Source: Natrarchaeobaculum sulfurireducens
Lineage (GTDB): Archaea > Halobacteriota > Halobacteria > Halobacteriales > Natrialbaceae
Assembly: GCF_003430825.1 (NCBI RefSeq)
Contig: NZ_CP024047.1
Span: 1,054,001-1,118,000 of the forward strand
Length of the DNA stretch: 64,000 bases
Direction: 5' to 3'
This document shows positions 1,713 through 62,797 of this stretch, one piece after another; position 1 is the first letter of the stretch; each line of letters starts with the position of its first letter. A program made the position numbers and the translations under genes. The notes under the pieces are model-generated. The model was not told where the DNA came from. It did no database searches and worked only from the letters and a program-made list of their open reading frames with translations.

Positions 1713-1968
1713 ATGACCGTCCAGATCGCTGGCGTCGCCAGCACACCGTACGGCAACCATCCGGACTCTTCGACACGCGAGTTGTTCACCGACGCCGCCC
1801 TCGAGGCGCTCGAGGATGCGTCGATCTCGGTCGACGATATCGAAGAACTCTACGCGGGGAACTTCATCGGCGACTTCCCACGAAATCGAGCGCGGCGAAG
1901 GAGTGCTGCTCGACGCTGAATCCGACGGCGACGGCCACTGGCTCGTCACGTTCATCCCATCGACCTGA
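1713..1968 (+). pseudogene. Thiolase N-terminal fragment joined out of frame to an unknown C-terminal fragment
   Basis: From the ATG at 1713 the reading frame gives about 55 residues typical of the N-terminus of archaeal SCP2-type acetyl-CoA acetyltransferases (VQIAGVASTPYG, DIEELYAGNFIGD). The frame then stops making sense near 1878. A second frame from 1879 to the TGA at 1966 reads HEIERGEGVLLDAES and ends WLVTFIPST; it looks like the tail of a different acidic protein that I do not recognise. An internal deletion that joined two genes is the simplest reading. The track frame itself would end at 1919. No catalytic Cys or His of thiolase remains, so no enzyme is expected. Confidence 0.7.
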
Positions 1969-2150: not shown

Positions 2151-4883
2151 GTGGCAGAGACCCAATACGAGGAGTACGCGCGACCGGAGACCGAACCCGC
2201 GGTCGACTGGCACGCGCGGTCGCTCGAGGAGACGTACGCGGAACTCGAGACCGCCGAAGCGGGCCTCGACTCTGCGGAGGCTGCTGACCGTCTCGAGCGA
2301 TACGGCCGAAACGAGGTCGAAACCGAAGCCGGTGCGTCGGCGCTTCGGATCTTCCTCGAGCAGTACACTTCGGTGTTGATCTGGGTGCTGATCGTCGCCG
2401 CGGCCGTGATGGCGGTGATCGGCGAGCTGATCGACGCGGGCGTCATCGCCGGCATCGTGGTGTTGATCACCCTGTTCGGGTTCGTCCAGGACTACCGCGC
2501 CGAACAGAGCATTCAGGCGTTAGAGGAGATGTCGACGACGTACGCGATGGCCAGACGAGACGGCGAAAAGACCGAGATCGACGCCACTCGAGTCGTTCCG
2601 GGCGACGTGATCTTCGTCGAGTCCGGCGACGTCGTCTCCGCTGACGCGCGAGTGATCGAGTCGACGAACCTCCGGGTCGACGAGTCGGCGCTCACGGGTG
2701 AGAGCGTCAGTGTCGCAAAGACGCCGGAGACGATCACCGAGGACGTCACGATCGCCGAGCGCGAGAACGTCCTCCACAAGGACACCGTGGTCGAGCGTGG
2801 CTCGGGAATCGCCGTCGTCGTCGAAACCGGCTCCAAGACGGAGATCGGCCAGATCGCGACGGCAATCGAGGAGGCCGAAGAACGCGATACGCCGTTTCAG
2901 GCCGAACTCGATAAACTCGGCAAGATCATCGCCGGAGCCGTCATCGGCATCGTGACGGTGATCGGCGTGGTGGAACTGGTGATCGGCGACACCGAGCCGG
3001 TCCAGGTGTTCATGACGGCCGTCGCCGTCGCCGTCTCCGCCGTCCCCGAAGGACTGCCGGCCGTCGTCACCCTTTCGCTCGCCCTCGGTGCTCGACGGAT
3101 GGCCGAACAGAACGCACTCGTCCGTCGGCTCCCGATCGTCGAGGCGCTCGGCTCCGTCGACGTCATCTGTACCGACAAGACCGGGACGCTGACCGAAGAG
3201 GAGATGACTGTCACTCGAGTGGCAGCGAACCGCGAGATCTACGAGGTCACCGGCACCGGCTACGACACCGACGGGGAGATCCGCTACGACGGCGAGGAGG
3301 TCGATGCCGAACGCGTCGGCGAACTGCTTCGCTGTGGCATGCTGTGTAACAACGTCGAACTCGGCCGACGCGAAGACCGCGACGACGAGTCGGCGTCCGG
3401 AGCCGGCGACCTGACCTATCTCGGCGATCCAACCGAGATTTCGCTCTTCGTCGCCGGCCGGAAAGCCGGCTTCGACCACGAGGACCTCCGCGAGCGCTAC
3501 CCCCGCATCGGCGAGGTCGAGTTCACCTCGGATCGCAAGCGAATGACCACCCTCCACGAGACGCCCGACGGCGACCACGTCGCCTACACGAAAGGCGCTC
3601 CCGAGGTCGTCCTCGAGCGCTGTACCCGCGAGTACGTCGACGGCGAGTTCGTCGATCTCACCGACGAGCGACGGGCAGAACTCGAGCGTCGAAACGAGTT
3701 GTTCGCCGAGGACGCCCTGCGCGTGATGGCTTTCGCGTTCCAGCCGAACGGACCCGAGACGGTGAGCGAAGACGACGAACAGGACCTGGTCTTTCTCGGC
3801 CTCCAGGGGATGCTCGATCCACCCCGGCCCGAGGTGGCGGGCGCGCTCGAGGGCTGTCTGAACGCGGGGATCGACGTCGTCATGATCACGGGTGACAACG
3901 CGACCACCGCACGAGCGGTCGGCCGCGAGATCGGCCTCGAGTCGGCCCGAGTGGTGACCGGCCTCGAACTCGAGGAGATGAGCGACGAGGAACTCGCCGA
4001 CGTCGTCGAGGACGTCGACGTCTTCGCGCGGACGTCGCCGGAACACAAGACGCGGATCCTCAAGATGCTCCAGTCGAAAGGTCACACGGTAGCGATGACC
4101 GGCGACGGCGTCAACGACGCGCCGGCGATCAAGAACGCCGACGTGGGCGTCGCGATGGGGATTCGCGGGACGGACGTCACCGAGCAGGCGTCGGATATCG
4201 TCTTGCTCGACGACAACTTCGCGACGATCCGCGACGCCGTCCGGCAGGGCCGACGGATCTTCGACAACGTCCGCAAGTTCGTCAACTACTTCCTCTCGGC
4301 CAACGGCGCCCACGTTCTTCTGTTGTTCTCCGGGATCATGTCCGGTGCAGGGCTGGTGATGACGCCGATCATGTTCCTGTGGATCAACGTGGTGACTGAC
4401 GGTATCCCCGCGTTGACGCTGGGTGTCGATCCCGAAGCCGACGACGTCATGGAGCGGCCGCCACGGCCCCCAGGTGAGGGCGTCATCACCGAGCGGATCA
4501 TGTCGTCGATCGGTGGAATCGCGATCCTGATCACGGCCACGCTGTTGCCGCTGTTTTATTATTACAACCAGGTCGTCGGCGATCTCGTGTTGGCCCAGAC
4601 GATGGTGTTCACCGCGTTCGTATTCATGGTGATCGCCCGTATCGGGGCGATCCGGACGCGGTATGGCCTCGGCCCGTTCTCCAACAATCGGTGGCTGCTG
4701 CTCGCGATCGCGATCACCCTGACGCTCCAGTTGCTCGTCCTCTATACGCCGCTGAGCGTGCTGTTCGGCGTTACGCCGCTGGCGTTTGGCCACTGGCTGC
4801 AGATCGGCCTCGTCGTCGCGGTCTTTTCGATCCTGATGGCCGGCTTCGTCGCGCTTCAGGACCGGTACTTCGACCGGTACTGA
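2151..4883 (+). CDS. P-type ATPase, P2-like (Ca2+/Na+-type cation pump)
   Basis: A 910-residue P-type ATPase with a GTG start. It has the actuator TGES loop near residue 181, PEGLPA in M4 near 298, the phosphorylation motif DKTGTLT near 342, KGAPE in the N domain and the hinge GDGVND near 651. M6 carries [11 protein letters not shown], close to the Ca-pump NxxTD motif, while the glutamate usual in M5 of SERCA is not evident (SANGAHV). This places it in the P2 group, with Ca2+, Mn2+ or Na+ as candidate ions. The family acts in the cytoplasmic membrane. A related pump, CtpF, belongs to the mycobacterial dormancy regulon, which fits the USP-rich surroundings. Confidence 0.93.
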
Positions 4884-4982: not shown

Positions 4983-5633
4983 TCATAGCCCGGGCGGATA
5001 CTCACCGGTCTTCCGGTACTCGGAGACCACCGCGGCGAACGCGGCCACGTGGAGGAGCACTACTACGACGATCATCGCGAGATATATCAGGTGGAGCGGA
5101 TCGTCCGAGGGGAACCCCATCTCCTCGTATGGACGGAGGTACGCCCGGTCGTAGCCGTGGACGGCAACGAGCCAGAAGATGACGTAGGTGCCGTGACTCT
5201 GGTGCCACTTCCAGGCTTTCGTGCCGAGATAGTCGTAGGCCCGGTTGTTCGACGTGGCCGCCAGGACGATCGCGATGAGGACGGCCACGAAGGCACCGAA
5301 CGCCCACGGACTCATGTCGACGAGATAGCCGACGACGTCCCAGTCACGCGCCGCGAAGACGAATAGGACGTGGATAACGGACCAGATCGCGAACCAGATG
5401 CCGAGTTCCGACCGCCAGTTCACCGGGAAGTTCCCCGAGAACTGACGCCTGATCGACGGCCGGATACGGACCAGCGGACCGATGACCATCACGACAAATA
5501 GGATGAAGAAGGGAACGGCACCGACGACTCGCTGCCCGCCGTATCCGACGACCCACAGCAAGACTGCGGCGACGAGGCTCCCGATCGCTACGCCAAGATG
5601 GTGGGTGAGTTCGTTGTTAGTGTCTGCTGTCAT
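4983..5633 (-). CDS. Ferric-reductase-like transmembrane cytochrome b protein
   Basis: A 216-residue integral membrane protein with about six hydrophobic segments and histidines placed like heme ligands of the ferric reductase/MsrQ family: SVIHVLFVF in one helix and WHQSHGTYVIFW followed by AVHGYD in the next. It has no FAD or NAD domain, so electrons must come from a partner. It lies 75 bp downstream of, and on the same strand as, a gene whose product ends in a [2Fe-2S] ferredoxin, the obvious candidate donor. The final electron acceptor (methionine sulfoxide system, quinone, metal) cannot be told from the sequence. Confidence 0.82.
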   Translation of the reverse strand: MTADTNNELTHHLGVAIGSLVAAVLLWVVGYGGQRVVGAVPFFILFVVMVIGPLVRIRPSIRRQFSGNFPVNWRSELGIWFAIWSVIHVLFVFAARDWDVVGYLVDMSPWAFGAFVAVLIAIVLAATSNNRAYDYLGTKAWKWHQSHGTYVIFWLVAVHGYDRAYLRPYEEMGFPSDDPLHLIYLAMIVVVVLLHVAAFAAVVSEYRKTGEYPPGL

Positions 5634-5708
5634 GATCTTCCAGTGTCACGTGGTCGTGGCCGAACGGACATCGATCACGCTGATAAAGCTGTTCCCGGTA
5701 CGCGACAC

Positions 5709-6959
5709 CTAGACCACTCGGTCTCGCAGTTCGTCGAGGTGTTTGGCACCGTACACCAGCGTGACCGAGTCACTCGCCGGTGTGGCCACGCAGGTCAGCC
5801 GGAATCCCCTCTGCTCTACCTCTTCGTTCGACAGACTCCGCTGGACGTCCATCTCGAGGTCGCCCTCGAGTACGACCGCAGTACAGTTCACACAGCCGCC
5901 GGCTCGACAGTAGTACGGCCAGTCGAGTCCCGCGGCTTCCGCTGCGTCGAGTACGTACTCCTCACGCGACACCTCGAGCGTCCCGTGAGCGTCGGCATCG
6001 AGGTCGGCGTCCGCGGCCCGCTCGAGGAGGTCGGCGTCCTCGAGCGACCAGCCGCGGTCGTCGATGACCTGGTAGTCGAGGTACTCGACGGTCACCGTCT
6101 CGGAACGCGGTGCGCTGATGCCGATTACCGGGACGCCCGCAAAGCGGACGACACGCTCGGTCGTGCTCCCGAGCAGGTAGCGTCGCAGCCCCGTCTCGCC
6201 GTGGGTTCCCATCACGATGCAGTCAGCGTCGTGCGTCGCAGCGGACGCGAGAATGCGCTGGTCGACACGACCGCTCGGGATCGAGACGTCGACGACCTCG
6301 AGGTCCGACCTGCGGATGCGTTCGAGCGCGTCGTCGACCGGCTCGAGACCGACCGGCTCGATATCCTCTCCATCTGTAGCCGTCTCCGCAACGTCGAACG
6401 GTTCTACCCCCTCGATGGGCTCCTCGTCGCTGACGTGGACGAGGTGGAGCCGTGTGCCAGTCGCGACGGTGAGGTCGATGGCGTGCTCGAGAGCGGTCGT
6501 CGCGCTGTGGCTCCCGTCGATGGGAACCAAGACGCGATCCAGCGCGCCCTCGACGTCGGTTTCCTCGTGGACAGTCGCGACCGGGACAGACGACTCCTGG
6601 AGGGTCTGTTCGGCCACGCTGCCCAGCAGGAACCGGCCGAGCCCGCTGCGACCGGTCGTCCCCATCACGATCAGGTCCGCCTCGCGTTCGTCGGCCGACT
6701 CGAGGAGTTCGTCGTGGACGGCGTCGCCCTCCTCGCGGAGTTCGGTCGTCACCTCGAGGCCGCGATCGGCCGCTCGCTCGGCCAATTCGTCGACCGCCCG
6801 TTCGCTCTCGTCTTCGCCGTCGTCGCCGACGAGTCCTCCCTCGAGGACGGAGACGACGTGTATCGCCGCGTCGAACCGTTCTGCGAGAGAGAGTGCGTAC
6901 GTCCCGGCGTCGGTTGCAACCGGACTGCCGTCGGTCGGAACGAGGATCGTCTCGTACAT
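5709..6959 (-). CDS. Tandem universal stress protein fused to a halophilic [2Fe-2S] ferredoxin
   Basis: A 416-residue fusion. USP domain 1 spans about 1-131 (ILVPTDGS; GTTGRSGLGRFLLGS). Domain 2 spans about 140-282 (VLVPIDGS; GTHGETGLRRYLLGS). Residues 288-416 match a whole haloarchaeal plant-type ferredoxin, including the halophile-specific acidic insert before the cluster site, Cys351, Cys356, Cys359 (CRAGGCVNC) and Cys390 (LTCVATP). Both USP nucleotide loops look intact. The start was chosen at MYETILVP because the 17 upstream codons are not family-like. It is followed by the membrane cytochrome gene at 4983. A role coupling nucleotide or stress sensing to electron transfer is inference. 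Confidence 0.92.
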   Translation of the reverse strand: MYETILVPTDGSPVATDAGTYALSLAERFDAAIHVVSVLEGGLVGDDGEDESERAVDELAERAADRGLEVTTELREEGDAVHDELLESADEREADLIVMGTTGRSGLGRFLLGSVAEQTLQESSVPVATVHEETDVEGALDRVLVPIDGSHSATTALEHAIDLTVATGTRLHLVHVSDEEPIEGVEPFDVAETATDGEDIEPVGLEPVDDALERIRRSDLEVVDVSIPSGRVDQRILASAATHDADCIVMGTHGETGLRRYLLGSTTERVVRFAGVPVIGISAPRSETVTVEYLDYQVIDDRGWSLEDADLLERAADADLDADAHGTLEVSREEYVLDAAEAAGLDWPYYCRAGGCVNCTAVVLEGDLEMDVQRSLSNEEVEQRGFRLTCVATPASDSVTLVYGAKHLDELRDRVV

Positions 6960-7401
6960 CTCGAGGGCCGTACCACGTTCGCTCTGAAATACCTCTAGGA
7001 CGGACCACACCTGCGGTCTGCCGTCGGTGTCACCGCCGGAGGGGGAGAGGGCTTCGAGGGGCGGCAGGTCGGCTCCCGGGATCCCGTGTCGGATCGGCGG
7101 CCGAACGGCTCAGGAGCCGTGGTACTCGCTGTCGGGTCGTGAGATACCCCGATTGGGAGTGTCGACACTGTGCGGACGTCTAACTGCTCGATCGAACCGG
7201 CGAGCGCTGGCGATCGGGGGAGGCAGACGGCCCTTCCGTCCACGAACGAGCGCTCGAGTTCGGGACGCCGGGAGTGACCACGCGCCGATTCGTGGGGGCG
7301 ATTATCATGTAACAGCAAATTGATAGCTTTGAAGACCTAACGGGGTGGTTTCGCTCGAGACGTGGCCCACCATTATTGCCGCGGCCGTAGAGGAGCGGCG
7401 T
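6960..7401. other. Divergent intergenic region, no gene recognised
   Basis: 442 bases separate the divergently transcribed USP-ferredoxin gene and the USP at 7402. Reading frames here are short and Arg/Ser/Pro rich, as expected of noncoding high-GC DNA. An AT-richer patch at about 7306-7330 (gtaacagcaaattgatagct) and the ccaccattattgcc stretch around 7368-7381 could hold promoters for the rightward gene. Nothing else recognisable. Confidence 0.6.
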
Positions 7402-43274: not shown

Positions 43275-46136
43275 ATGTCAGGGAAGGCCAACCTAGAACC
43301 GAAACGAGACACGCCGCCATCTCGACACCCGGATCCGTTCTTCGGTGAAGAAATAGCCACTGGCATCGGTGGGCTCGTCTGTCTCGATACCACCGGGACG
43401 ATCGTCTTCGCCGGTCCGTACGTCGGGGAACTCGTCGGATACGACCCGGATGAGTTGTTCGGCCGACCGCTCGTGGACCTCTTCGCCGACGACCGAGACG
43501 ACCCACTCGAGCAGTTCCTCGAGCAGGGCCGATCGCGTCCCAAGCATCAGGACGACACACTGAGCGGCGGGGCACTGGAATGTACTCACTCGCTCGTCCA
43601 CGGTGACGGTCGGCTCGTTCCGGTCACCCTCGCGGTCGACGAGGTCGAGCACGATGGACGCCGACTCCTGATCGTTCGGCTTCGAAACCGGACCGAACTC
43701 GAGGCGGACCGACGGTACGACGGGGTCGTCAACACCGTCGCTGACGGGATCTACTACCTCGACAGTGAGGGACGATTCGTCGCGGTCAACGATCGGATCG
43801 TCGAGGCGACCGGGTACGAGCGCGACTACCTCCTCGGGGAGCACGTCTCGGTGCTTCTCGACGACGAGACGATCGAGCGAACCGAACACCGGATCCGTGA
43901 ACTGATGCGGACCGGCGGAGAGTCGGTTACGCTCGATCTCGACGTCACGACCGCGACGGGCGAGCAACTCCCCTGTGAGTTGCGCCTGTCAGTTCTCGAG
44001 CGACACGGCGAGTTCGTCGGAACCGTCGGCGTGGTTCGCGACGTCACCGACCGCCTCGAGCGAGAACGCGCCGTCGAGCACCGATCGGCCGTGATCGAGT
44101 CGGCGATCGATGGGATGGGATTCTCCGACGAGACCGGCGAGCTCTGCTACGTGAACCCTGCTCTAGCCGAGTTACACGGCTACGACGAGCCGGAAGCCCT
44201 CGTCGGGACCTCCTGGAAGGTGCTTTTCCCCGAAGAAGAGGCCGACCGCATCGAACGGGAGATCCTGCCGATCGTCCTCGAACGTGGCTACTGGCGCGGC
44301 GAGGCGACCGGGAAGCGCGCGGACGGCTCACGGTTCCCCCAGGAGCACTCGCTTACGGCCCACGGCGACGGGATCGTCTGCGTCGCTCGTGACATCACCG
44401 AACGGAAAACGAGAGAACGACAGCTCGAGGCGCTCATCGAAGTCGCCCGCGAACTGATGAGCGCGGACACCCACGACGATATCGCCCAGATCGGGATCGA
44501 GGCGGTCGAGAACGTCCTCGAGTTCGAGGTCGCCTGTATCCGCCTGTTCGACGAGGACGCGAACCGTCTCGCGTTCGTTGCGCTGACCGACGGTGCCCTG
44601 GAGCTTCTCGAGACGCAGATGGCGTACGACCTGGAGTCGACGCTCGCCGGCCGGGCGTTCAGAGACGAGGAGCCGCTGATCAACGCGACCGATCAACGCG
44701 GCGATGTCGGCTCCGAGTCGCCGTTCGAGAACGCGAGCGTTCACGTTCCGATCGGACGGTGTGGGGTTCTCAGCTTCATCGTTCGAAGCGATGAACAGGT
44801 CGACGACAACGACGTCCACCTCGTCGAACTGCTGGCGATGGGGATCGGAGCGGCGCTGGAGCGGGCCGACCGAACCCGCCTGCTCCGCACCCAGGAACGG
44901 GAGTTGCGCCAGCAGCACAACCAACTCGAGACGTTGATCCGGATCAACGCCGTCAACAACGAGATCAGCACCAGCCTCGTGGCGGCGACGGTTCGCGAGG
45001 AACTCGACCGGACGATCTGTGAGCACCTGGTGGAGTCGGAGTTCTATCAGAGCGCCTGGATTGGCCGCATCGAAGGGGCAAGCGATCGCTTCGGATCTGC
45101 CATTGGCGTCGGCGTCGAAGAGAGCTACCTCGACACAATCACGAACGCGTCGCTGTCGGGAATCGGTGGCGGCGTCGTCAAGCGAGCGATCGAGAGCCAG
45201 GAGATGCACGTCATCTACCAGTACCAGATCGACGGCATCAACGGGGCCGACGAGGAAGACGGTGAGGCCGGCGAGGACGTCGAGTCGATCGCGGCCGTGC
45301 CACTGCTGTTCGGCGATCGACTCGTCGGTGTCCTCGTCATCAACAGCGTTCGCGACGACGTCTTCTGTGAGCAGGCCGTCAGCGGCTTCGAATCGCTCGG
45401 GAAGGTCATCGGATTCGCACAGAACGCGCTCAAGAGCCGGAAGTTGCTCCTCGCCGATTCGATCGTCGAACTCGAGTTTCGCGTGGCCGATCCGGCCGTG
45501 TTTCACATCCGGCTCACGGCGGATCTCGACTGTCGGTGTGAGTTTCAGCGCGGAATTCCCATCGAAAACGGCCGTCTCATCACCTACGACAGGATCGTGG
45601 GCGCTGAGCCGTCGGCCGTCCTCGAGGTCGCCCAAGAGGCTGCTCACATCGAGCGCGCTCGCGTCGTCTCCGACCGTCCCGAGGGCTTCGTCCTCGAGAC
45701 CGTCACGTCACACTCGCTGGTCCAGCACGCACTCGAACTGGGGACGACCGTGCGGTCCGCGGTCGCCGACGGTGGCGAGGGGACGGTCCTCATCGAAGCA
45801 CCGCACACGGCAGACGTTCGCGAACTTGTCGGCGCGTTCGTGCGCGAGTTCGACGCGCTCGAACTCGTCGCAAAACGCGAGCGTGACCACTCCGTGACGA
45901 CCGCTGATGAGTTCCGTACTGCAGTCGCGACGAACCTCACGGAAAAACAATGCGGGGCGCTCGAGGCGGCGTACCTCGCTGGCTACTACGACTGGCCGCG
46001 GAAGACGACCGCCGAAGAACTCGCCGAGTCGATGGACATCTCGTCGTCGACCTTACACCAGCACCTCCGGAAAGCCAACTGGAACCTGCTGTCGGCGTTC
46101 TTCGACGAGCCGACGAGCACACCTCGAGTAGAATGA
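43275..46136 (+). CDS. PAS/GAF sensor regulator with bacterio-opsin-activator HTH (Bat-like)
   Basis: 953 residues. Three PAS domains lie at about 25-140, 145-260 and 265-375; the second reads DGIYYLDSEGRFVAVNDRIV. Two GAF domains follow at about 385-535 and 560-725, then a Bat beta-barrel domain (LEFRVADPAVFHIRLTADL onward) and a C-terminal HTH_10 at about 893-945, including LTEKQCGALEAAYLAGYYDW and ISSSTLHQHLRKAN. No kinase or receiver domain is present, so it likely senses a ligand, redox or light signal and binds DNA directly. Its stop overlaps the start of a small RHH-like gene (ATGA). Confidence 0.92.
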   Translation: MSGKANLEPKRDTPPSRHPDPFFGEEIATGIGGLVCLDTTGTIVFAGPYVGELVGYDPDELFGRPLVDLFADDRDDPLEQFLEQGRSRPKHQDDTLSGGALECTHSLVHGDGRLVPVTLAVDEVEHDGRRLLIVRLRNRTELEADRRYDGVVNTVADGIYYLDSEGRFVAVNDRIVEATGYERDYLLGEHVSVLLDDETIERTEHRIRELMRTGGESVTLDLDVTTATGEQLPCELRLSVLERHGEFVGTVGVVRDVTDRLERERAVEHRSAVIESAIDGMGFSDETGELCYVNPALAELHGYDEPEALVGTSWKVLFPEEEADRIEREILPIVLERGYWRGEATGKRADGSRFPQEHSLTAHGDGIVCVARDITERKTRERQLEALIEVARELMSADTHDDIAQIGIEAVENVLEFEVACIRLFDEDANRLAFVALTDGALELLETQMAYDLESTLAGRAFRDEEPLINATDQRGDVGSESPFENASVHVPIGRCGVLSFIVRSDEQVDDNDVHLVELLAMGIGAALERADRTRLLRTQERELRQQHNQLETLIRINAVNNEISTSLVAATVREELDRTICEHLVESEFYQSAWIGRIEGASDRFGSAIGVGVEESYLDTITNASLSGIGGGVVKRAIESQEMHVIYQYQIDGINGADEEDGEAGEDVESIAAVPLLFGDRLVGVLVINSVRDDVFCEQAVSGFESLGKVIGFAQNALKSRKLLLADSIVELEFRVADPAVFHIRLTADLDCRCEFQRGIPIENGRLITYDRIVGAEPSAVLEVAQEAAHIERARVVSDRPEGFVLETVTSHSLVQHALELGTTVRSAVADGGEGTVLIEAPHTADVRELVGAFVREFDALELVAKRERDHSVTTADEFRTAVATNLTEKQCGALEAAYLAGYYDWPRKTTAEELAESMDISSSTLHQHLRKANWNLLSAFFDEPTSTPRVE

Positions 46137-46351
46137 CCACGAGCATCAAACTCTACGGATCGAAAGCAGAACGGTTCGAACAGATCAAGGCGACGCTCAC
46201 CGAACAGCTCGGCTACGAGCCGTCCAACCCGGAAGTCGTCGGGCTGCTGATGGCGTCGTTCGACGAAGACGATGGCGGCTGGTCTCGAAGATACGGCGGA
46301 TCGGCGAAGCCACAGCCTTCGCGGGACGTGAGACGACGGCATATCCACTGA
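46133..46351 (+). CDS. Small ribbon-helix-helix-like protein, copy 1
   Basis: 72 residues: TTSIKLYGSKAERFEQIKAT, LTEQLGYEPSNPEVVGLLMA and a variable basic tail. A beta strand (SIKLY) followed by two helices (AERFEQIKATL; NPEVVGLLMASF) fits the ribbon-helix-helix DNA-binding fold. Four related genes occur in the window. This one overlaps the Bat-like gene by four bases, so it is translated from the same message and may act with that regulator. Confidence 0.82.
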   Translation: MTTSIKLYGSKAERFEQIKATLTEQLGYEPSNPEVVGLLMASFDEDDGGWSRRYGGSAKPQPSRDVRRRHIH

Positions 46352-46456: not shown

Positions 46457-48358
46457 TCAGCCCAGGACGGCGGAGACGAGGCTGTCGACGGCTGCGCCGA
46501 TACTCGCGGTCAGGCTCGAGCGCGCGTCGTTCTCGTCATCATCGTCGCCATCGTCGCCATCGTCGTCATCATCGTCGGTATCGGTGGCTTGACCACAGTC
46601 GGAATCGTAGGACTCCTCGAAGCTGCTGTCGTCCATCGAACTCTCGAAGCTGCTGCGTTCGGAGTCGGTGTCGGAGTCGCTGCGGGTACTCTCTCGCTGG
46701 TCGACGTCGCTGTCGCTGTCGCTCTCTTCGAGCGTGCTCTCGGTCTGGCTGTCGTCGGTGCGCTCTGAGCGGTCAGACTGGCTGACGTCGGCGGCGCTGT
46801 CGGAGTCGTTGCTGGAGTCGTTCTCGACGTCGAGGTCCTCAACGGTGTCGACGCCGCTGTCGCTCTCGCTGTCGGTGTCGAGTGCGGAATCGCTCGATTC
46901 GCTGTACTCGCTCTCACTTACGTCACTCTCGTCGCTGGTCGTACTCCCATCGCGCTCGCTGTACGTGCGGTCGCTCGAGAGTTCGCTCTCGTCGACGTCG
47001 ATGCTCCGTTCTTCGTTGTCGTTGTCGGTGGTGTCGAGGCTGTGCTCCTGTTGGTCGCTCTCGGCCTCGCCGCGGTCGCTTTCGTGCTGGTCGCTCGCGG
47101 ATTCGCTGTGAGCCCGGTCGCTGTCGCTGGTGCTCGCGTCGCGGTCGCTCTCGTCGACGGACTGTTCGGAGCCCTGTCGGTCGGTCTGGCTCGCGTCGCG
47201 TTCGGAGTCGTCGTACTCGCTACGATCGCTGTCGCTGTCGGAGCTGGAGCGGTCGCTCTGGGTGAGTTCGGTCTCCATGGCGTCGCGGTCGGACTCGTCG
47301 AAGGCGCTCTCGCTGACGCTACGGTCGCTCTCGCTCGCGTCACTGTCGCTCTGGGTACGCTCTTCACTGTCACTGTCGCTGTCGCTGTCGATGCGGTCGA
47401 AGCTATCGCGGTCGTTCTCGCCGCGGTCGACTTCGTCGCGTTCGTCGCTTTCGGAGTCGGTCTCACGCTCTTCGCTCTCGCTTTCTTGGCTCTCGCTCTC
47501 GTCGCTTTCTCGGTCGTCTTCGTCGTACTCGCTCTCGCTCACATCGCTCTTGCTCTCCTCGACGGTCTGCTCGTCGCGGTCGCTCTCGTCCATCTCGCTG
47601 TCGCTATCGCTCTCCTCGAGGCTGCTCGAGTCGGATTCGCTGACGTCGACGTCGCGGTCGTCGTAGTCGACGTCGCTTTCGCTGACGTCGCTCTCGCTTT
47701 CGTCTGTCGAGGCCTCGCTCTCGTCGGTGTCGACCGAGCTGTCACTTGCACTGACGTCGCGCTCGTCGGAGGTGCTGTCGCTCGCGCTCGCGTCGCTCTC
47801 GCTGTGTGTGCTGTCACGGTCGGTCGTCCTGTCCTCGCGCTCACTGACGTCACGGTCGAGGTCGCTCTCGTCCTCGGCGATCTCGACGTCCGAGTCGTCG
47901 ATCTGGCTCTGGCTCTCCGAGCGGTCGCTCTCGTCGACGTCGCTGACGTCGCGCTCGCTGCTCGAGTCACGCGCTTCGTCGCGGTCGTTCTCCTCGTAGG
48001 TGCTGCCGTCGCGGTCGGAGACGCTGTCGCTTTCGCTGTCACGGTCGCTCTCTTCGAGTTCGCTCTCTTCGAACTCACTCGAGCTGTCGCTCGTACTGTC
48101 GCTCTCGCTCAGGTCGGCGTCGCTCGAACTCTCTCGGAGATCACTACTGGATCGGTCCCGCTCGCTACTACTGTCCTGTTCGGTTTCCTCGGTTTCGTCC
48201 GACGACGAGGTACTGTCGTCGACGGTTTCGCCTTCGTCACACCGATCGTCCACTTGCATGCTAGCGCCGGAGCTCGCTCCGGCAAGGCCGCTTACGCCGG
48301 TTACCCCCGCTAACACCAAGAGACCAATCACTGTGAGGATTGTTACGTTCTGGAACAT
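46457..48358 (-). CDS. Ser/Asp/Glu/Arg repeat surface protein 1
   Basis: 633 residues: an N-terminal secretion or anchor helix (ILTVIGLLVLAGVTGVSGLAGA), about 540 residues built of short Ser-, Asp-, Glu- and Arg-rich units such as SESDSD and DERD, an Asp tract, and a C-terminal amphipathic SSLTASIGAAVDSLVSAVLG. The only cysteines are Cys40 and Cys588, flanking the repeat block. The protein is extremely soluble and unfolded by composition. Its ends match the neighbour at 51155. Likely extracellular; function unknown. Confidence 0.88.
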   Translation of the reverse strand: MFQNVTILTVIGLLVLAGVTGVSGLAGASSGASMQVDDRCDEGETVDDSTSSSDETEETEQDSSSERDRSSSDLRESSSDADLSESDSTSDSSSEFEESELEESDRDSESDSVSDRDGSTYEENDRDEARDSSSERDVSDVDESDRSESQSQIDDSDVEIAEDESDLDRDVSEREDRTTDRDSTHSESDASASDSTSDERDVSASDSSVDTDESEASTDESESDVSESDVDYDDRDVDVSESDSSSLEESDSDSEMDESDRDEQTVEESKSDVSESEYDEDDRESDESESQESESEERETDSESDERDEVDRGENDRDSFDRIDSDSDSDSEERTQSDSDASESDRSVSESAFDESDRDAMETELTQSDRSSSDSDSDRSEYDDSERDASQTDRQGSEQSVDESDRDASTSDSDRAHSESASDQHESDRGEAESDQQEHSLDTTDNDNEERSIDVDESELSSDRTYSERDGSTTSDESDVSESEYSESSDSALDTDSESDSGVDTVEDLDVENDSSNDSDSAADVSQSDRSERTDDSQTESTLEESDSDSDVDQRESTRSDSDTDSERSSFESSMDDSSFEESYDSDCGQATDTDDDDDDGDDGDDDDENDARSSLTASIGAAVDSLVSAVLG

Positions 48359-49786: not shown

Positions 49787-49963
49787 TCACACGAGTGCAT
49801 TGTCGACGCGAAGCGCGTTGGTCTCCTCGGTTTCGTAGGCGGCCATGATGAGGCCGACGACCTCCGGGTTGGACGGCTCGTAGCCGAGTTGCTGTTCCAT
49901 ACTGGCTTTGATTTCTTCGAATCGGTCACTTTTCGATCCGTAGAGTTTGATGTGTGAGGTCAT
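49787..49963 (-). CDS. Small ribbon-helix-helix-like protein, copy 2
   Basis: 58 residues: TSHIKLYGSKSDRFEEIKAS, MEQQLGYEPSNPEVVGLIMA and AYETEETNALRVDNALV. It differs from copy 3 at only a few positions and shares the SIKLYGSK...GYEPSNPEVVGL core with copy 1. The frame is below common length cut-offs. It converges with the DUF4352 lipoprotein gene. Confidence 0.82.
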   Translation of the reverse strand: MTSHIKLYGSKSDRFEEIKASMEQQLGYEPSNPEVVGLIMAAYETEETNALRVDNALV

Positions 49964-51154: not shown

Positions 51155-53047
51155 TTAGCCAAGCAGGCCGGAGACGAGGCTGTCGACGGCTGCGCCGATG
51201 CTCGCGGTCAGGCTCGAGCGGGCGTCGTTATCGTCGTCATTATCCTCATCGCCGTCATCATCGTCGGTGTCGGTGACTTGACCACAGTCGGAGTCGTAGG
51301 ACTCCTCGAAGCTGCTGTCGTCCATCGAACTCTCGAAGCTGCTGCGTTCGGAGTCGGTGTCGGAGTCGCTTCGAGTGCTGTCTCGTTCGTCGACGTCGCT
51401 GTCACTGTCACTGCTCTCGAGCGTGCTCTCGGTCTGGCTGTCGTCGGTGCGCTCTGAGCGGTCAGACTGGCTGACGTCGGCGGCGCTGTCGGACTCGCTG
51501 CTGGAGTCGCTCTCGACGTCGACGTTCTCGAGGGTGTCGACGCCAGTGTCACTCTCACTGTCGGAGTCGAGTGCGGACTCGGTCGATTCGCTGTACTCGC
51601 TCTCGCTTACGTCGCTCTCGTCGCTGGTTGTACTCCCGTCGCGCTCGCTGGAGGAGCGGTCGCTCGAGAGTTCACTCTCGTCGGTCGCGTTACTGCGCTG
51701 TTCGCTGTCGTTATCGCTGCTGTCGAGGCTACTGTCTTGGTGGTCGCTCTGAGTGTCGCTGCTGTCGCTCTCACTCGCGTCGCTGTCGGACTCGCTGTGG
51801 GTCCGGTCGCTGTCAGCGCTGCTCGCGTCACGGTCGCTCTCGTCTGCGGAGCTCTCTGCGCCCTGGCGGTCGCTCTGGCTCGCATCACGCTCGGAGTCGT
51901 CGCTCTCGCTGCGGTCGCTGTCGCTGTCGGAGCTGGAGCGGTCGCTCTGGGTGAGTTCGGTTTCCGAGGCGTCGCGGTCGGACTCGTCGAAGGCACCCTC
52001 GCTCACGCTGCGGTCGCTGTCGCTGGCGTCGCTGTCGGAGCGGTCGTGTTCTTCGGAGTCGCTGTCGGACTCGCTGTCGATGCGGTCGAAGCTGTCGCGG
52101 TCGTTCTCGCCGCGGTCGACTTCGTCGCGCTCGTCGCTTTCGGAGTCGCTTTCGCTGTTCGAGCGTTCGCTCTCGTCGGAGCTGCTCTCGTCGGACTCGC
52201 TCTCGTCTTCGTCGCGATCGTGGTCGCTCACGTCGCTACGGCTCTCCTCGAGGACGCGCTCGTCGAGGTCGCTCACGTCTTCGTCGCTCTGACTGTCGTG
52301 TTCGTCTGCGGCGCTCGCGTTGGATTCGCTGACGTCGACGTCGCGGTCGTCGTAGTCGACGTCGCTCTCGCTGACGTCGCTTCGGCTCTCGTCTGTCGAA
52401 CTGGCGCTCTCGTCGGTGTCACTCGAGCTGTCGCTTTCGCTCGAGTCACTGGCCTCGGAGGCGTGATCGCTTTCGTTCGAGTCGCGCTCGCTGTGTGTGC
52501 TGTCCTGGTCGCTCGCGCTCTCGGTGCGTTCGCTTTCGTCACGGTCGAGGTCGCTCTCGTCTTCGGTGACCTCGACGTCCGAGTCGTCGATCTCGCCGTG
52601 ACTCTCGTCGTAGTTACTCTCGTCGACAGTGTTGACGTCGCGCTCACTGCTCGAGTCGTGCGCTTCGTTACGGTCGTTCTCTTCGAAGGAACTGGCGTCA
52701 CGATCGGAGTCGCTGTCACTGGAGCTGTCACGGTCGCTCTCTTCGAGTTCGCTTTCGTCGAACTCGCTCGAGTTGTCGCTCGAACTGTCGCTCTCGCTCA
52801 AGTCGGAGTCACTCGAACTCTCTCGGAGATCGCTACTAGATCGGTCCCGCTCGCTACTGCTGTCTGTCTCACGTTCCTCCTCGTCGTCTGCCGACGACGT
52901 ACTGTCGTCGACGGTTTCGCCTTCGTCACATCGATCGTCCACTTGCATGCTCCCACCGGCACTCGCGCCGGCGAGTCCGCTGACGCCGGCCGCACCGGAG
53001 ACCACCAAGAGACCAATCACTGTGAGGATTGTTACGTTCTGTATCAT
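51155..53047 (-). CDS. Ser/Asp/Glu/Arg repeat surface protein 2
   Basis: 630 residues, close paralogue of the protein at 46457. It has the same anchor (QNVTILTVIGLLVVSGAAGV), the same SMQVDDRCDEGETVDDSTSS entry and the same C-terminal SSFESSMDDSSFEESYDSDC and SLTASIGAAVDSLVSGLLG. Cysteines are again only Cys40 and Cys588, although the repeat interior differs by many substitutions. The upstream 36-bp block is identical. It is presumed exported; the repeats would be fully hydrated in salt. Confidence 0.88.
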   Translation of the reverse strand: MIQNVTILTVIGLLVVSGAAGVSGLAGASAGGSMQVDDRCDEGETVDDSTSSADDEEERETDSSSERDRSSSDLRESSSDSDLSESDSSSDNSSEFDESELEESDRDSSSDSDSDRDASSFEENDRNEAHDSSSERDVNTVDESNYDESHGEIDDSDVEVTEDESDLDRDESERTESASDQDSTHSERDSNESDHASEASDSSESDSSSDTDESASSTDESRSDVSESDVDYDDRDVDVSESNASAADEHDSQSDEDVSDLDERVLEESRSDVSDHDRDEDESESDESSSDESERSNSESDSESDERDEVDRGENDRDSFDRIDSESDSDSEEHDRSDSDASDSDRSVSEGAFDESDRDASETELTQSDRSSSDSDSDRSESDDSERDASQSDRQGAESSADESDRDASSADSDRTHSESDSDASESDSSDTQSDHQDSSLDSSDNDSEQRSNATDESELSSDRSSSERDGSTTSDESDVSESEYSESTESALDSDSESDTGVDTLENVDVESDSSSESDSAADVSQSDRSERTDDSQTESTLESSDSDSDVDERDSTRSDSDTDSERSSFESSMDDSSFEESYDSDCGQVTDTDDDDGDEDNDDDNDARSSLTASIGAAVDSLVSGLLG

Positions 53048-53266: not shown

Positions 53267-55156
53267 TTACTCGAGTTTGCTGACGTCGACATCGTAAGAG
53301 CCGTCGTCGTTCTCGACGAGAACGCCGTTTCGCTCGAGTTCCTGGGGACTGTCGCCGGTGACGATCAGCCGTTCGGAGATCGTCTCGCAGTCGGAGTCGG
53401 TCGTCTGTTCGCGCTCGCTCTGGTCTCGTTCACTTTCGGCTCGTTCACGCTCGCTGTCGGCGTCGGACTCGCTGCGGTCGCTGTCTCGCGTCTCGAGGTC
53501 GCGTTCGCTCTCGCTGACGTCACGCTCGCTCTCGCGTTCGCTCTCGTCGGCGCGTTCGCTGCGGTCGCGGTCGCTCTCGTCGCGTTCGCTATCGCGGTCA
53601 CTGAGCCGCTCGCGTTCGGTGTCGGTGTCTACGTGCTCGTCGACGCCCGTATCGCGCTCGCTCAGGGTGTCGCGTTCGGACGCCGTGGACTCGCTCAGGT
53701 CACGCTCGCTCTCCTCACGGTCGTCGGAATACTGACTCCCGTCGCGCTCGCTCGAGGTTCGGTCGGCCTCGCTACCGCGGTCAGCACGCTCGCTTTCGGC
53801 GCGTTCGGTGTCGTTGTCCGTGGTATCGAGCGTCGTTTGCTGCTGGTCGCGCTCCGTGTCGCTGCGCTCGCTTTCGAACTCCTCGGCGTCGAAGTCGCTG
53901 CGAGCGCTCTCGCTGTCGGCGGTACTCGCCTCTCGGTCGCTCTCCTCGAGCGTGTACTCGCTGCCCTGGCGGGCCTGATCGTGTTCGTCGAGGACCGAGT
54001 CGAAGGATTCGCTCAGGAACGATCCGCTGGTGAACTCACTGCGGTCGCGCTCGCTGCGGTCGCTCTCTGTCGCCGACTCCTCGCTCTCGTCGCGATCCGA
54101 GTCGCTCGTTTCGCGTTCCTGTTCGTGTTCGGTCTGCTCGCTCGAGTCCGACGCCGCACGCGCTGTGTCGTGTTCGCTGTCGGCGCGTTCTTGCGCATCG
54201 GTGTCCTCGCCACGGTCGAAGCGGTCGGCGTCGATCCGTTCGGTGTCGCTTTCGCTTCCGGACTCCTCGTGTTCCTCGCTCGAGGTGGCGTCACGGTCGC
54301 TCTCGCGCTCGTCGGCGGTACTCTCACTCGCGTCGCTCGTGTTCTCCTCGGCAGATCGTTCCTCGAGATTGCGTTCGTCCGCGGTAGTCTCGTCGTCGGT
54401 CGTTTCGATGTCGCTGCTGTCGTGTTCGCTCGTCTCACGCGCGGTGTCGTCGTGGTCGACGTCGCTCTCACTCCGGTCGCTGGCGTGCTCGTCAGCGACG
54501 GCGTCGCGCTCGTCTGCCTCACTCGCGCTTTCGCTTTCACTCGCCTCGCTCTCGTCGCTGGCACTGTCGCTTGCACTCGAGTCGGTCTCGCTGTGGGTGC
54601 TGTCGCCGTCCGACTCGGTCGCGTCACGTTCGCTGACGTCGTGCTCGCTGTCGCGTTCGCTCTCGTTGATTTCGACGTCGGTGTCGTCGATTTCGCTCTC
54701 GCTGACGTCGCGTGCGGAGTCGTCGACCTCGCTGGCGTCGCGCTCGCTGCTCGAGTCGCGCGCTTCGTCGCGGTCGTTCACTTCGAACTCGCTGCCGTCG
54801 CGGTCGTACTCGCTGTCGCTTGCGCTGTCGCGCTCGCTCAACTCGCGCTCGCTCTCGTCGAGTGCGCTCGAGCTCTCGCTCTGGCTGTCGCGTTCGCTGA
54901 CGTCTCGATCACGGTCGTTTTCGCGGTGGTCGGTGTTCGCTCGGTCACGCTCGCGCTCGCTCTGGCTGTCGCGTTCGTCGATCTCGCTCGTGACGTCGAG
55001 GGTTTCGTCCAGGTGCTCGCTCACGTCGCATCGCTCGTCGTCCAAGGTGTAGATGACGGTCTGGTCGTCACCGTTGGTGACGCCGCCAGTCGCGGCGACG
55101 ACGCCACCTAACACCAGGAGAGCGGCCAACGCGAGGACACCAACGTGGTCTATCAT
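53267..55156 (-). CDS. Ser/Asp/Glu/Arg repeat surface protein 3 (divergent)
   Basis: 629 residues: anchor GVLALAALLVLGGVVAATGG, a short entry with Cys43 (TLDDERCDVSEHLDE), about 540 residues of Ser/Asp/Glu/Arg units richer in ERD and RDSE than its neighbours, then Cys590 (SDCETISERLIVTGDSP) and a folded-looking end NGVLVENDDGSYDVDVSKLE. The two cysteines are again the only ones, 547 positions apart. Third member of the tandem family, with different terminal domains. Confidence 0.87.
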   Translation of the reverse strand: MIDHVGVLALAALLVLGGVVAATGGVTNGDDQTVIYTLDDERCDVSEHLDETLDVTSEIDERDSQSERERDRANTDHRENDRDRDVSERDSQSESSSALDESERELSERDSASDSEYDRDGSEFEVNDRDEARDSSSERDASEVDDSARDVSESEIDDTDVEINESERDSEHDVSERDATESDGDSTHSETDSSASDSASDESEASESESASEADERDAVADEHASDRSESDVDHDDTARETSEHDSSDIETTDDETTADERNLEERSAEENTSDASESTADERESDRDATSSEEHEESGSESDTERIDADRFDRGEDTDAQERADSEHDTARAASDSSEQTEHEQERETSDSDRDESEESATESDRSERDRSEFTSGSFLSESFDSVLDEHDQARQGSEYTLEESDREASTADSESARSDFDAEEFESERSDTERDQQQTTLDTTDNDTERAESERADRGSEADRTSSERDGSQYSDDREESERDLSESTASERDTLSERDTGVDEHVDTDTERERLSDRDSERDESDRDRSERADESERESERDVSESERDLETRDSDRSESDADSERERAESERDQSEREQTTDSDCETISERLIVTGDSPQELERNGVLVENDDGSYDVDVSKLE

Positions 55157-56415: not shown

Positions 56416-56592
56416 TTACAGAAGTGCGTTGTCGACCTGGAGCGCACTACTCTCGTCGGTCTCGTAGGCGGCCATGATGAGGCCGACGACTTCCGGGTTG
56501 GACGGCTCGTAGCCGAGTTGCTGTTCTAAATTGGTTTTGATCTCTTCGAACCGGTCGCTTTTCGACCCGTAGAGTTTGATGTGTGATGTCAT
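56416..56592 (-). CDS. Small ribbon-helix-helix-like protein, copy 3
   Basis: 58 residues, near-identical to copy 2: TSHIKLYGSKSDRFEEIKTN, LEQQLGYEPSNPEVVGLIMA, then YETDESSALQVDNALL. Ends in TAA, below usual length limits. Together with copy 2 it flanks the repeat-protein locus. Confidence 0.83.
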   Translation of the reverse strand: MTSHIKLYGSKSDRFEEIKTNLEQQLGYEPSNPEVVGLIMAAYETDESSALQVDNALL

Positions 56593-62572: not shown

Positions 62573-62797
62573 TCAAAAAAGCGGCACCTCGAGTCCAGAC
62601 CAGTGTGTGTCAGAGCAGGTGTCTTCGGTCGGTTCGGCTCCTTCCCCTTCGCTCGAGGCGTGTGACTCGAGACTCGACATGAGGAGTCCGAGGACTTCCG
62701 GGTTGCTCAGGTCGTACCCCATCCGTTCCGAGAGTTCGCCTTTGATCGTCTCGAATCGGCGTGCCTTCGAGCCGTGAAGCTTGATGTGTGTAGTCAT
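62573..62797 (-). CDS. Small ribbon-helix-helix-like protein, copy 4
   Basis: 74 residues: TTHIKLHGSKARRFETIKGE, LSERMGYDLSNPEVLGLLMS, then an acidic 30-residue tail. The most divergent copy, yet it keeps the strand-helix-helix pattern and SNPEV. It converges with the protease gene. Confidence 0.8.
   Translation of the reverse strand: MTTHIKLHGSKARRFETIKGELSERMGYDLSNPEVLGLLMSSLESHASSEGEGAEPTEDTCSDTHWSGLEVPLF

Follow-up and report, generated by a model that had tools for sequence, protein, structure and literature searches.

A second, specialised haloarchaeal ferredoxin, borne on a tandem USP module, is encoded next to a membrane protein of predicted six-helix type whose signature residues place it in the ferric-reductase (FRD) superfamily, and the two genes occur together in the family far more often than chance would allow. 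The pair lies in the window, by which we mean the whole 64,000-nucleotide stretch of the Natrarchaeobaculum sulfurireducens genome analysed here (Table 1). The reading we prefer, evenly balanced in our estimation between true and false, is that the USPs control a ferredoxin which would pass electrons to the neighbouring membrane cytochrome, from the cytosol to an outer acceptor; the flow, its direction, the gating and the acceptor are all what we infer. A sequence-only reading of this DNA had described one frame with two USPs and a four-cysteine ferredoxin, and its coordinates and residues were all correct.

Table 1. Coordinates (window positions) and distinguishing marks of the fusion gene, its membrane neighbour and adjoining elements.
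Feature	Position	Strand	Remarks
USP-USP-[2Fe-2S] ferredoxin fusion	5709..6959	-	416 aa, start ATG 6959, stop 5709
USP domain 1 (about residues 1-135)	6555..6959	-	loop GTTGRSGLGRFLLGS at residue 100
USP domain 2 (about residues 136-286)	6102..6554	-	loop GTHGETGLRRYLLGS at residue 251
Whole halobacterial plant-type ferredoxin (residues 290-416 + stop codon)	5709..6092	-	Cys351/356/359/390
Ferric-reductase-superfamily membrane protein, predicted six-helix type	4983..5633	-	216 aa, R74/H88/Q145/H159, family signature
P-type cation ATPase	2151..4883	+	convergent with fusion/membrane pair
Conserved promoter/leader block of membrane gene	5658..5697	-	TTTAT at 5687-5683 = -54 from ATG
Conserved TATA-like element upstream of fusion	6972..6995 (approximate)	-	TATTT at -32

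The Pfam search recognises Usp (PF00582) in two stretches of the fusion (185.6 bits against a cut-off of 24) and Fer2 in its remainder (51.4 bits against 21). Residues 290-416 score 194.9 bits with the NCBIfam model 'ferredoxin Fer' (NF041393), whose curated cut-off is 150, and over its whole length the ferredoxin part can be aligned with 1e0z and 1doi, two haloarchaeal ferredoxins of solved structure; like these it has all four cysteines, arranged in the cluster motif C-x4-C-x2-C...C. RefSeq and plasmid annotation names the fusion 'ferredoxin Fer' and its neighbour 'hypothetical protein'.

Full-length fusions number 33, in 30 haloarchaeal genomes, and every copy keeps the four cluster cysteines. 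The nucleotide loops, reported as intact by the sequence-only reading, are so: the ATP-type pattern G-2x-G-9x-G-[S/T] stands in USP1 of all 33 copies and, strictly, in USP2 of 32, the exception (L105) having GG in place of GS, while the Asp after beta-1 of each USP (D10 and D148) is present in 33/33. On loop and Asp together both USPs are predicted to be of the ATP-binding type. The fusion is moreover a compact unit, since the spacing is fixed at 84-88 residues between the USP2 loop and the first Cys and 65-66 from there to the C-terminus across the 33 copies. Such conservation rules out a frameshift or assembly artefact as the origin of the fusion; the two outcomes that would have told against it, a sequencing frameshift splitting the frame and absence of the architecture from related genomes, are both contradicted, by the 33 copies and the 30 genomes respectively.

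Matches to the fusion at E<=1e-60 were obtained in 30 of a sample of 125 family genomes, three of which (G052, G054 and G062) have tandem USPs without the ferredoxin, leaving 27 family genomes that carry the fusion; in USP-rich genomes the first fusion search scored part of the candidates. An order-wide draw of 392 genomes gave 35 matches, 23 of them with the ferredoxin part as judged from listed ranges and tblastn, these 23 including three carriers outside the family (G138, G139 and G253). No fusion was found beyond haloarchaea at E<=1e-47 in a 392-genome phylum sample, and in the plasmid collection the records covering at least 80% of the query were two, from Natrialba magadii and Natronococcus occultus. 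A separate housekeeping Fer is encoded in 29 of the 30 fusion genomes, the exception being G139, whose assembly is 59% complete. In each of these 29 the best-matching Fer is 81-100% identical to the Fer of the window genome, and the fused copies are 54-62% identical to it. The fused ferredoxin is therefore a second, specialised one: whereas housekeeping Fer is a stand-alone protein of ~128 aa, this separate paralogue sits behind two USPs.

The membrane gene starts 75 bp past the fusion's stop codon, on the same strand, and its product is hydrophobic. The sequence-only reading had made it a six-helix heme protein with no flavin domain of its own; the distance, the superfamily and the missing flavin domain all stand, and the heme is a prediction from the family signature. 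The four signature residues R74, H88, Q145 and H159 are invariant in 22/22 relatives and align with four residues of E. coli MsrQ, R77, H91, H151 and H164, a numbering consistent with the alignment. The MsrQ histidines bind heme. The E. coli K-12 record describes MsrQ as a membrane-bound flavocytochrome. According to passages of PMC3591440, the first heme His is replaced by Arg in YedZ/STEAP proteins, and STEAP2-4 retain only two of the His, with a TM5 Gln in place of the inner ligand. The window protein matches this YedZ/STEAP-type pattern of Arg and His in TM3 and Gln/His and His in TM5, and is by that signature a divergent member of the ferric-reductase superfamily. On the STEAP2-4 pattern it would hold a single b-type heme, the outer one, and by analogy with what is suggested for MsrQ and STEAP we infer an inner flavin.

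Against the curated MsrQ and Pfam models it falls short of the cut-offs. At E<=0.5 the window protein matches nothing in Pfam, Ferric_reduct (PF01794) included, while four of its 22 relatives do match Ferric_reduct at that threshold, the best at 1.1e-10. It scores 22.4 bits against the curated MsrQ cut-off of 130; at E<=0.1, 14 of the 22 relatives match MamZ and 10 match MsrQ. Alignment with E. coli MsrQ by hhalign gives a probability of 49.9%, and a search of solved structures with the membrane-protein alignment returned no match at E<=1. At the threshold chosen, a hydropathy scan split TM4 in two and passed over TM5, and the AlphaFold model has long helices but a mean pLDDT of 47.7, too poor for use. 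In a model of the fusion built on six sequences the USP half is mostly above pLDDT 70 and the ferredoxin half is poor.

Linkage of the two genes is extensive. A six-helix gene lies within 4 kb of the fusion in 27 of the 33 copies, on the same strand in 18, divergent in eight and convergent in one. Among the 125 family genomes 25 have both genes, two the fusion only, seven the membrane gene only and 91 neither (Fisher p=7.9e-18), so that the pairing put forward by the sequence-only reading goes far beyond chance. Shuffling within genera, with the genus labels of unlisted negatives interpolated from handle order, leaves 15.7 genomes with both expected against the 25 observed (p<=5e-5). Two clades of the fusion tree, the window-type and the divergent-type, are both recovered in the membrane-protein tree, which includes three very long rows of unsure placement (G282, G138 and the G046/G393 pair); the last of these joins the window-type clade by a branch of length 3, a position that is not reliable. 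The fusion copies of G122 and G138 have no partner nearby, and both genomes have a six-helix gene at another site; G007 and G101 are fusion genomes with no six-helix gene at all. At one locus (L116; G091:C2, L116:8222-8868) the same-strand six-helix gene is frameshifted and split over two frames, intact copies being present elsewhere in that genome.

The fusion is under strong purifying selection. Against orthologues L104 and L105 dN/dS is 0.10 and 0.08 in the ferredoxin part and 0.24-0.32 in the USP domains, and for the membrane protein the same two comparisons give 0.10 and 0.08; other pairs spread more widely, with the ferredoxin part reaching 0.53 in a close pair with few changes. By this measure the ferredoxin part is the best-conserved domain of the fusion, as might also be expected if the cluster served to sense redox state, oxygen or NO and altered nucleotide binding by the USPs, the output being a signal in place of electron transfer, and USPs have been proposed to be regulatory in transporter-USP fusions (in sections of PMC3102087). 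The ferredoxin, however, is a full-length canonical carrier with its entire C-terminal end retained, and a redox-type membrane partner has been retained alongside in 27 of the 33 loci; a sensor is, in our judgement, unlikely.

For the fusion, a GTG at 7010 is an unlikely start because orthologues begin at ATG 6959 and the stretch upstream of that ATG contains the conserved TATA-like element. The membrane gene has a TATA block of its own, with TTTAT at -54 in 18 of 19 window-type membrane genes (at -49 in L119). Since this block accompanies the membrane gene even where other genes separate it from the fusion, each gene probably has its own promoter, co-transcription being possible and not required. 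A single operon, implied by the sequence-only reading, is accordingly not supported, the more so as the pair is divergent in eight loci. The promoter motif does not recur elsewhere in the window, where the next best score was -3.4, as compared with 56.1, and shuffling the window gave scores up to -1.4. At a distance from the pair, the window also encodes three long Ser/Asp/Glu-rich proteins with signal-like N-termini (46457-48358, 51155-53047 and 53267-55156, minus strand; AT skew to -0.43), around which stand four small paralogues with a 'GYxxSNPEVxGLxM'-like stretch (46133-46351, 49787-49963, 56416-56592 and 62573-62797).

Separate promoters would also suit a soluble isoform that serves a cytosolic enzyme under stress, with the membrane gene merely sharing a stress island of USPs and a P-type ATPase. 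The island is indeed USP-rich, and the ATPase is found within the listed +/-5 genes at 15 of 19 window-type loci (W, L104-L121). The pair is nevertheless not merely island-borne, because in the divergent clade, where the ATPase is among the listed neighbours of one locus in eight, it persists outside the island; co-occurrence, moreover, holds under within-genus shuffling, and a small membrane gene fills the slot in four of the six copies that lack an adjoining six-helix gene. We regard this soluble alternative as distinctly unlikely. Adjoining the ATPase is a short N-terminal remnant of a thiolase (1713-1919, plus strand), at the site of which relatives have an intact 387-aa thiolase with a ChsH2-type OB/zinc-ribbon partner. 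A tie to loss of the bc-type cytochrome b was rejected, PF00033 being matched in 5/34 fusion or partner genomes and 19/91 others (p=0.61).

The small gene in that slot encodes a 70-aa protein of two helices. It lies 108-215 bp downstream of the fusion in G101 (where it occupies the same position next to the P-type ATPase), G007, G113 (copy 1) and G084 (copy 2), and is present in seven of the 125 family genomes, six of them fusion carriers. Its Pfam matches, to DUF4405 and cytochrome b561 families among others, are weak and below cut-off, and kinship with the six-helix protein was rejected at an hhalign probability of 0.7%. By eye the protein and its relatives (L117:7314-7526) have two conserved His. 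It is a possible minimal, cytochrome-b-like partner of the fusion.

Another [2Fe-2S] protein recurs in these neighbourhoods: in several haloarchaea an apparently exported ferredoxin lipoprotein (L137:8453-8932 and relatives) is linked to the six-helix protein. By eye its N-terminus has a twin-Arg motif and a lipobox, after which Fer2 scores 52.5 bits. It is often near six-helix homologues that have no fusion; its gene adjoins the six-helix gene or lies close to it in G088, G090, G091, G092, G138, G210 and G304, and lies close to the fusion in G007 and G113. At E<=1e-25, a cut chosen after the gap in the match list was visible, it occurs in 17 of the 34 genomes that have the fusion or the partner and in none of the 91 that have neither; weaker matches in genomes with neither gene include a split gene in G106 (71% identity in one of its pieces) and a tandem pair of pieces in G102 (44%). 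For the window genome the best match is weak (3.2e-11). Several window-type loci have other exported proteins instead (seven members), with a weak copper-binding match below cut-off in the one member tested. In G304 one neighbourhood combines a tandem USP, a P-ATPase, a six-helix gene and separate ferredoxins. A further Fer2 protein (L161:2216-3957), about 1.2 kb to the right of the window's end, adjoins what by eye is an SBP56-like selenium-binding protein.

In the electron-delivery reading that we prefer, the fused ferredoxin would take low-potential cytosolic electrons from 2-oxoacid:ferredoxin oxidoreductases or from the main ferredoxin and hand them to the ferric-reductase-type membrane protein encoded next door. 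An inner-site flavin would probably take part in this protein, as in MsrQ/STEAP, and the electrons would cross by way of a single b-type heme (H88/H159) and reach an acceptor on the outer side. The acceptor could be the exported ferredoxin lipoprotein where it is present, and otherwise a cupredoxin, a metal or a quinone; the USP pair would set the timing, by nucleotide-dependent docking or by its dimer state under stress. The legend to Figure 3 of PMC3591440 lists Fer2 as a fused electron-transfer domain of FRD-superfamily proteins. Several results count against this reading. A single outer heme would require an inner cofactor that is itself postulated; the MsrQ and Pfam scores are below cut-off, the predicted structure is of low confidence, the membrane gene carries a promoter block of its own and the bc-type cytochrome b shows no association; two of the 33 copies are without a nearby partner, and G007 and G101 without the six-helix protein; and in the window genome the strong exported-ferredoxin homologue is missing.

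A bolder form of the electron-delivery reading, which we think rather unlikely, is that of a ferredoxin valve gated by nucleotides. During stress, whether of energy or of redox state, the ATP- or AMP-loaded USP pair would switch the dedicated ferredoxin onto the STEAP-like membrane protein with its predicted heme and, in some species, further to the exported ferredoxin lipoprotein. If true, it would amount to an electron wire across the membrane that has [2Fe-2S] proteins at either side, and it would give haloarchaea, also those that lack a bc-type complex, a way to reoxidise ferredoxin. Transfer from a quinol to a low-potential [2Fe-2S] ferredoxin would be uphill without energy input, which counts against the opposite course, very improbable in our view, in which the membrane protein supplies the fused ferredoxin with electrons from a quinol or an outside donor as reductant under stress. 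Sequence cannot give direction, and MsrQ is described as quinone-binding in a portion of PMC8238504, but the ferric-reductase-superfamily members covered by the literature consulted move electrons outward.

What appears to be new here is the combination, the USP, ferredoxin and ferric-reductase-type parts being already known. Tandem USP proteins such as 3loq share the two Usp domains and lack the C-terminal ferredoxin; in the fusion the nucleotide loops are kept in both. Surveys of archaeal USPs name single, tandem, permease-fused and Na+/H+-exchanger-fused architectures (parts of PMC7601130 and PMC12159084). A USP-ferredoxin fusion goes unnamed in the searched text of PMC7601130, PMC10791855, PMC3102087, PMC3403918 and PMC12159084, with the exception of Figure 1 in PMC7601130 and Table 2 in PMC12159084; within that compass of literature the view of the sequence-only reading that the fusion is undescribed agrees with what we found. 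MsrQ/YedZ with Fre or MsrP, STEAP and the short bacterial ferric reductases resemble the membrane protein in the six-helix type, which for the latter is predicted, with no flavin domain and an Arg/His/Gln/His pattern, and resemble the pair in joining a soluble cytosolic donor to a membrane heme protein, the heme here being predicted. They differ in that the donor of MsrQ/YedZ-type systems is Fre/NADPH and the proposed donor here a USP-ferredoxin, and in that our membrane protein falls below the MsrQ and Ferric_reduct cut-offs; no MsrP gene was recognised by eye in the neighbourhoods of the fusion and partner loci inspected. The ApbE-linked 'MsrQ-like' extracytosolic redox systems, as set out in sections of PMC8238504, likewise tie a ferric-reductase-type membrane protein by genomic context to soluble redox partners, whereas the exported partner here is, in part of the genomes, a [2Fe-2S] ferredoxin lipoprotein, and the cytosolic one is fused to USPs.

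The automatic name 'ferredoxin Fer' conceals the USP half from users of the annotation. The molecular role of USPs is poorly defined, and the fusion would give them a directly measurable output. Passages of a 2021 review (PMC8305020) treat the reoxidation of haloarchaeal ferredoxin as unresolved, as they do electron flow in the roughly one third of haloarchaea, especially Natrialbales, in which complex III is missing. A conserved ferredoxin linked to a dedicated membrane protein offers a concrete, deletable candidate. Together, the fusion and its membrane partner of predicted heme type suggest a stress-controlled electron route to the cell membrane in some haloarchaea.
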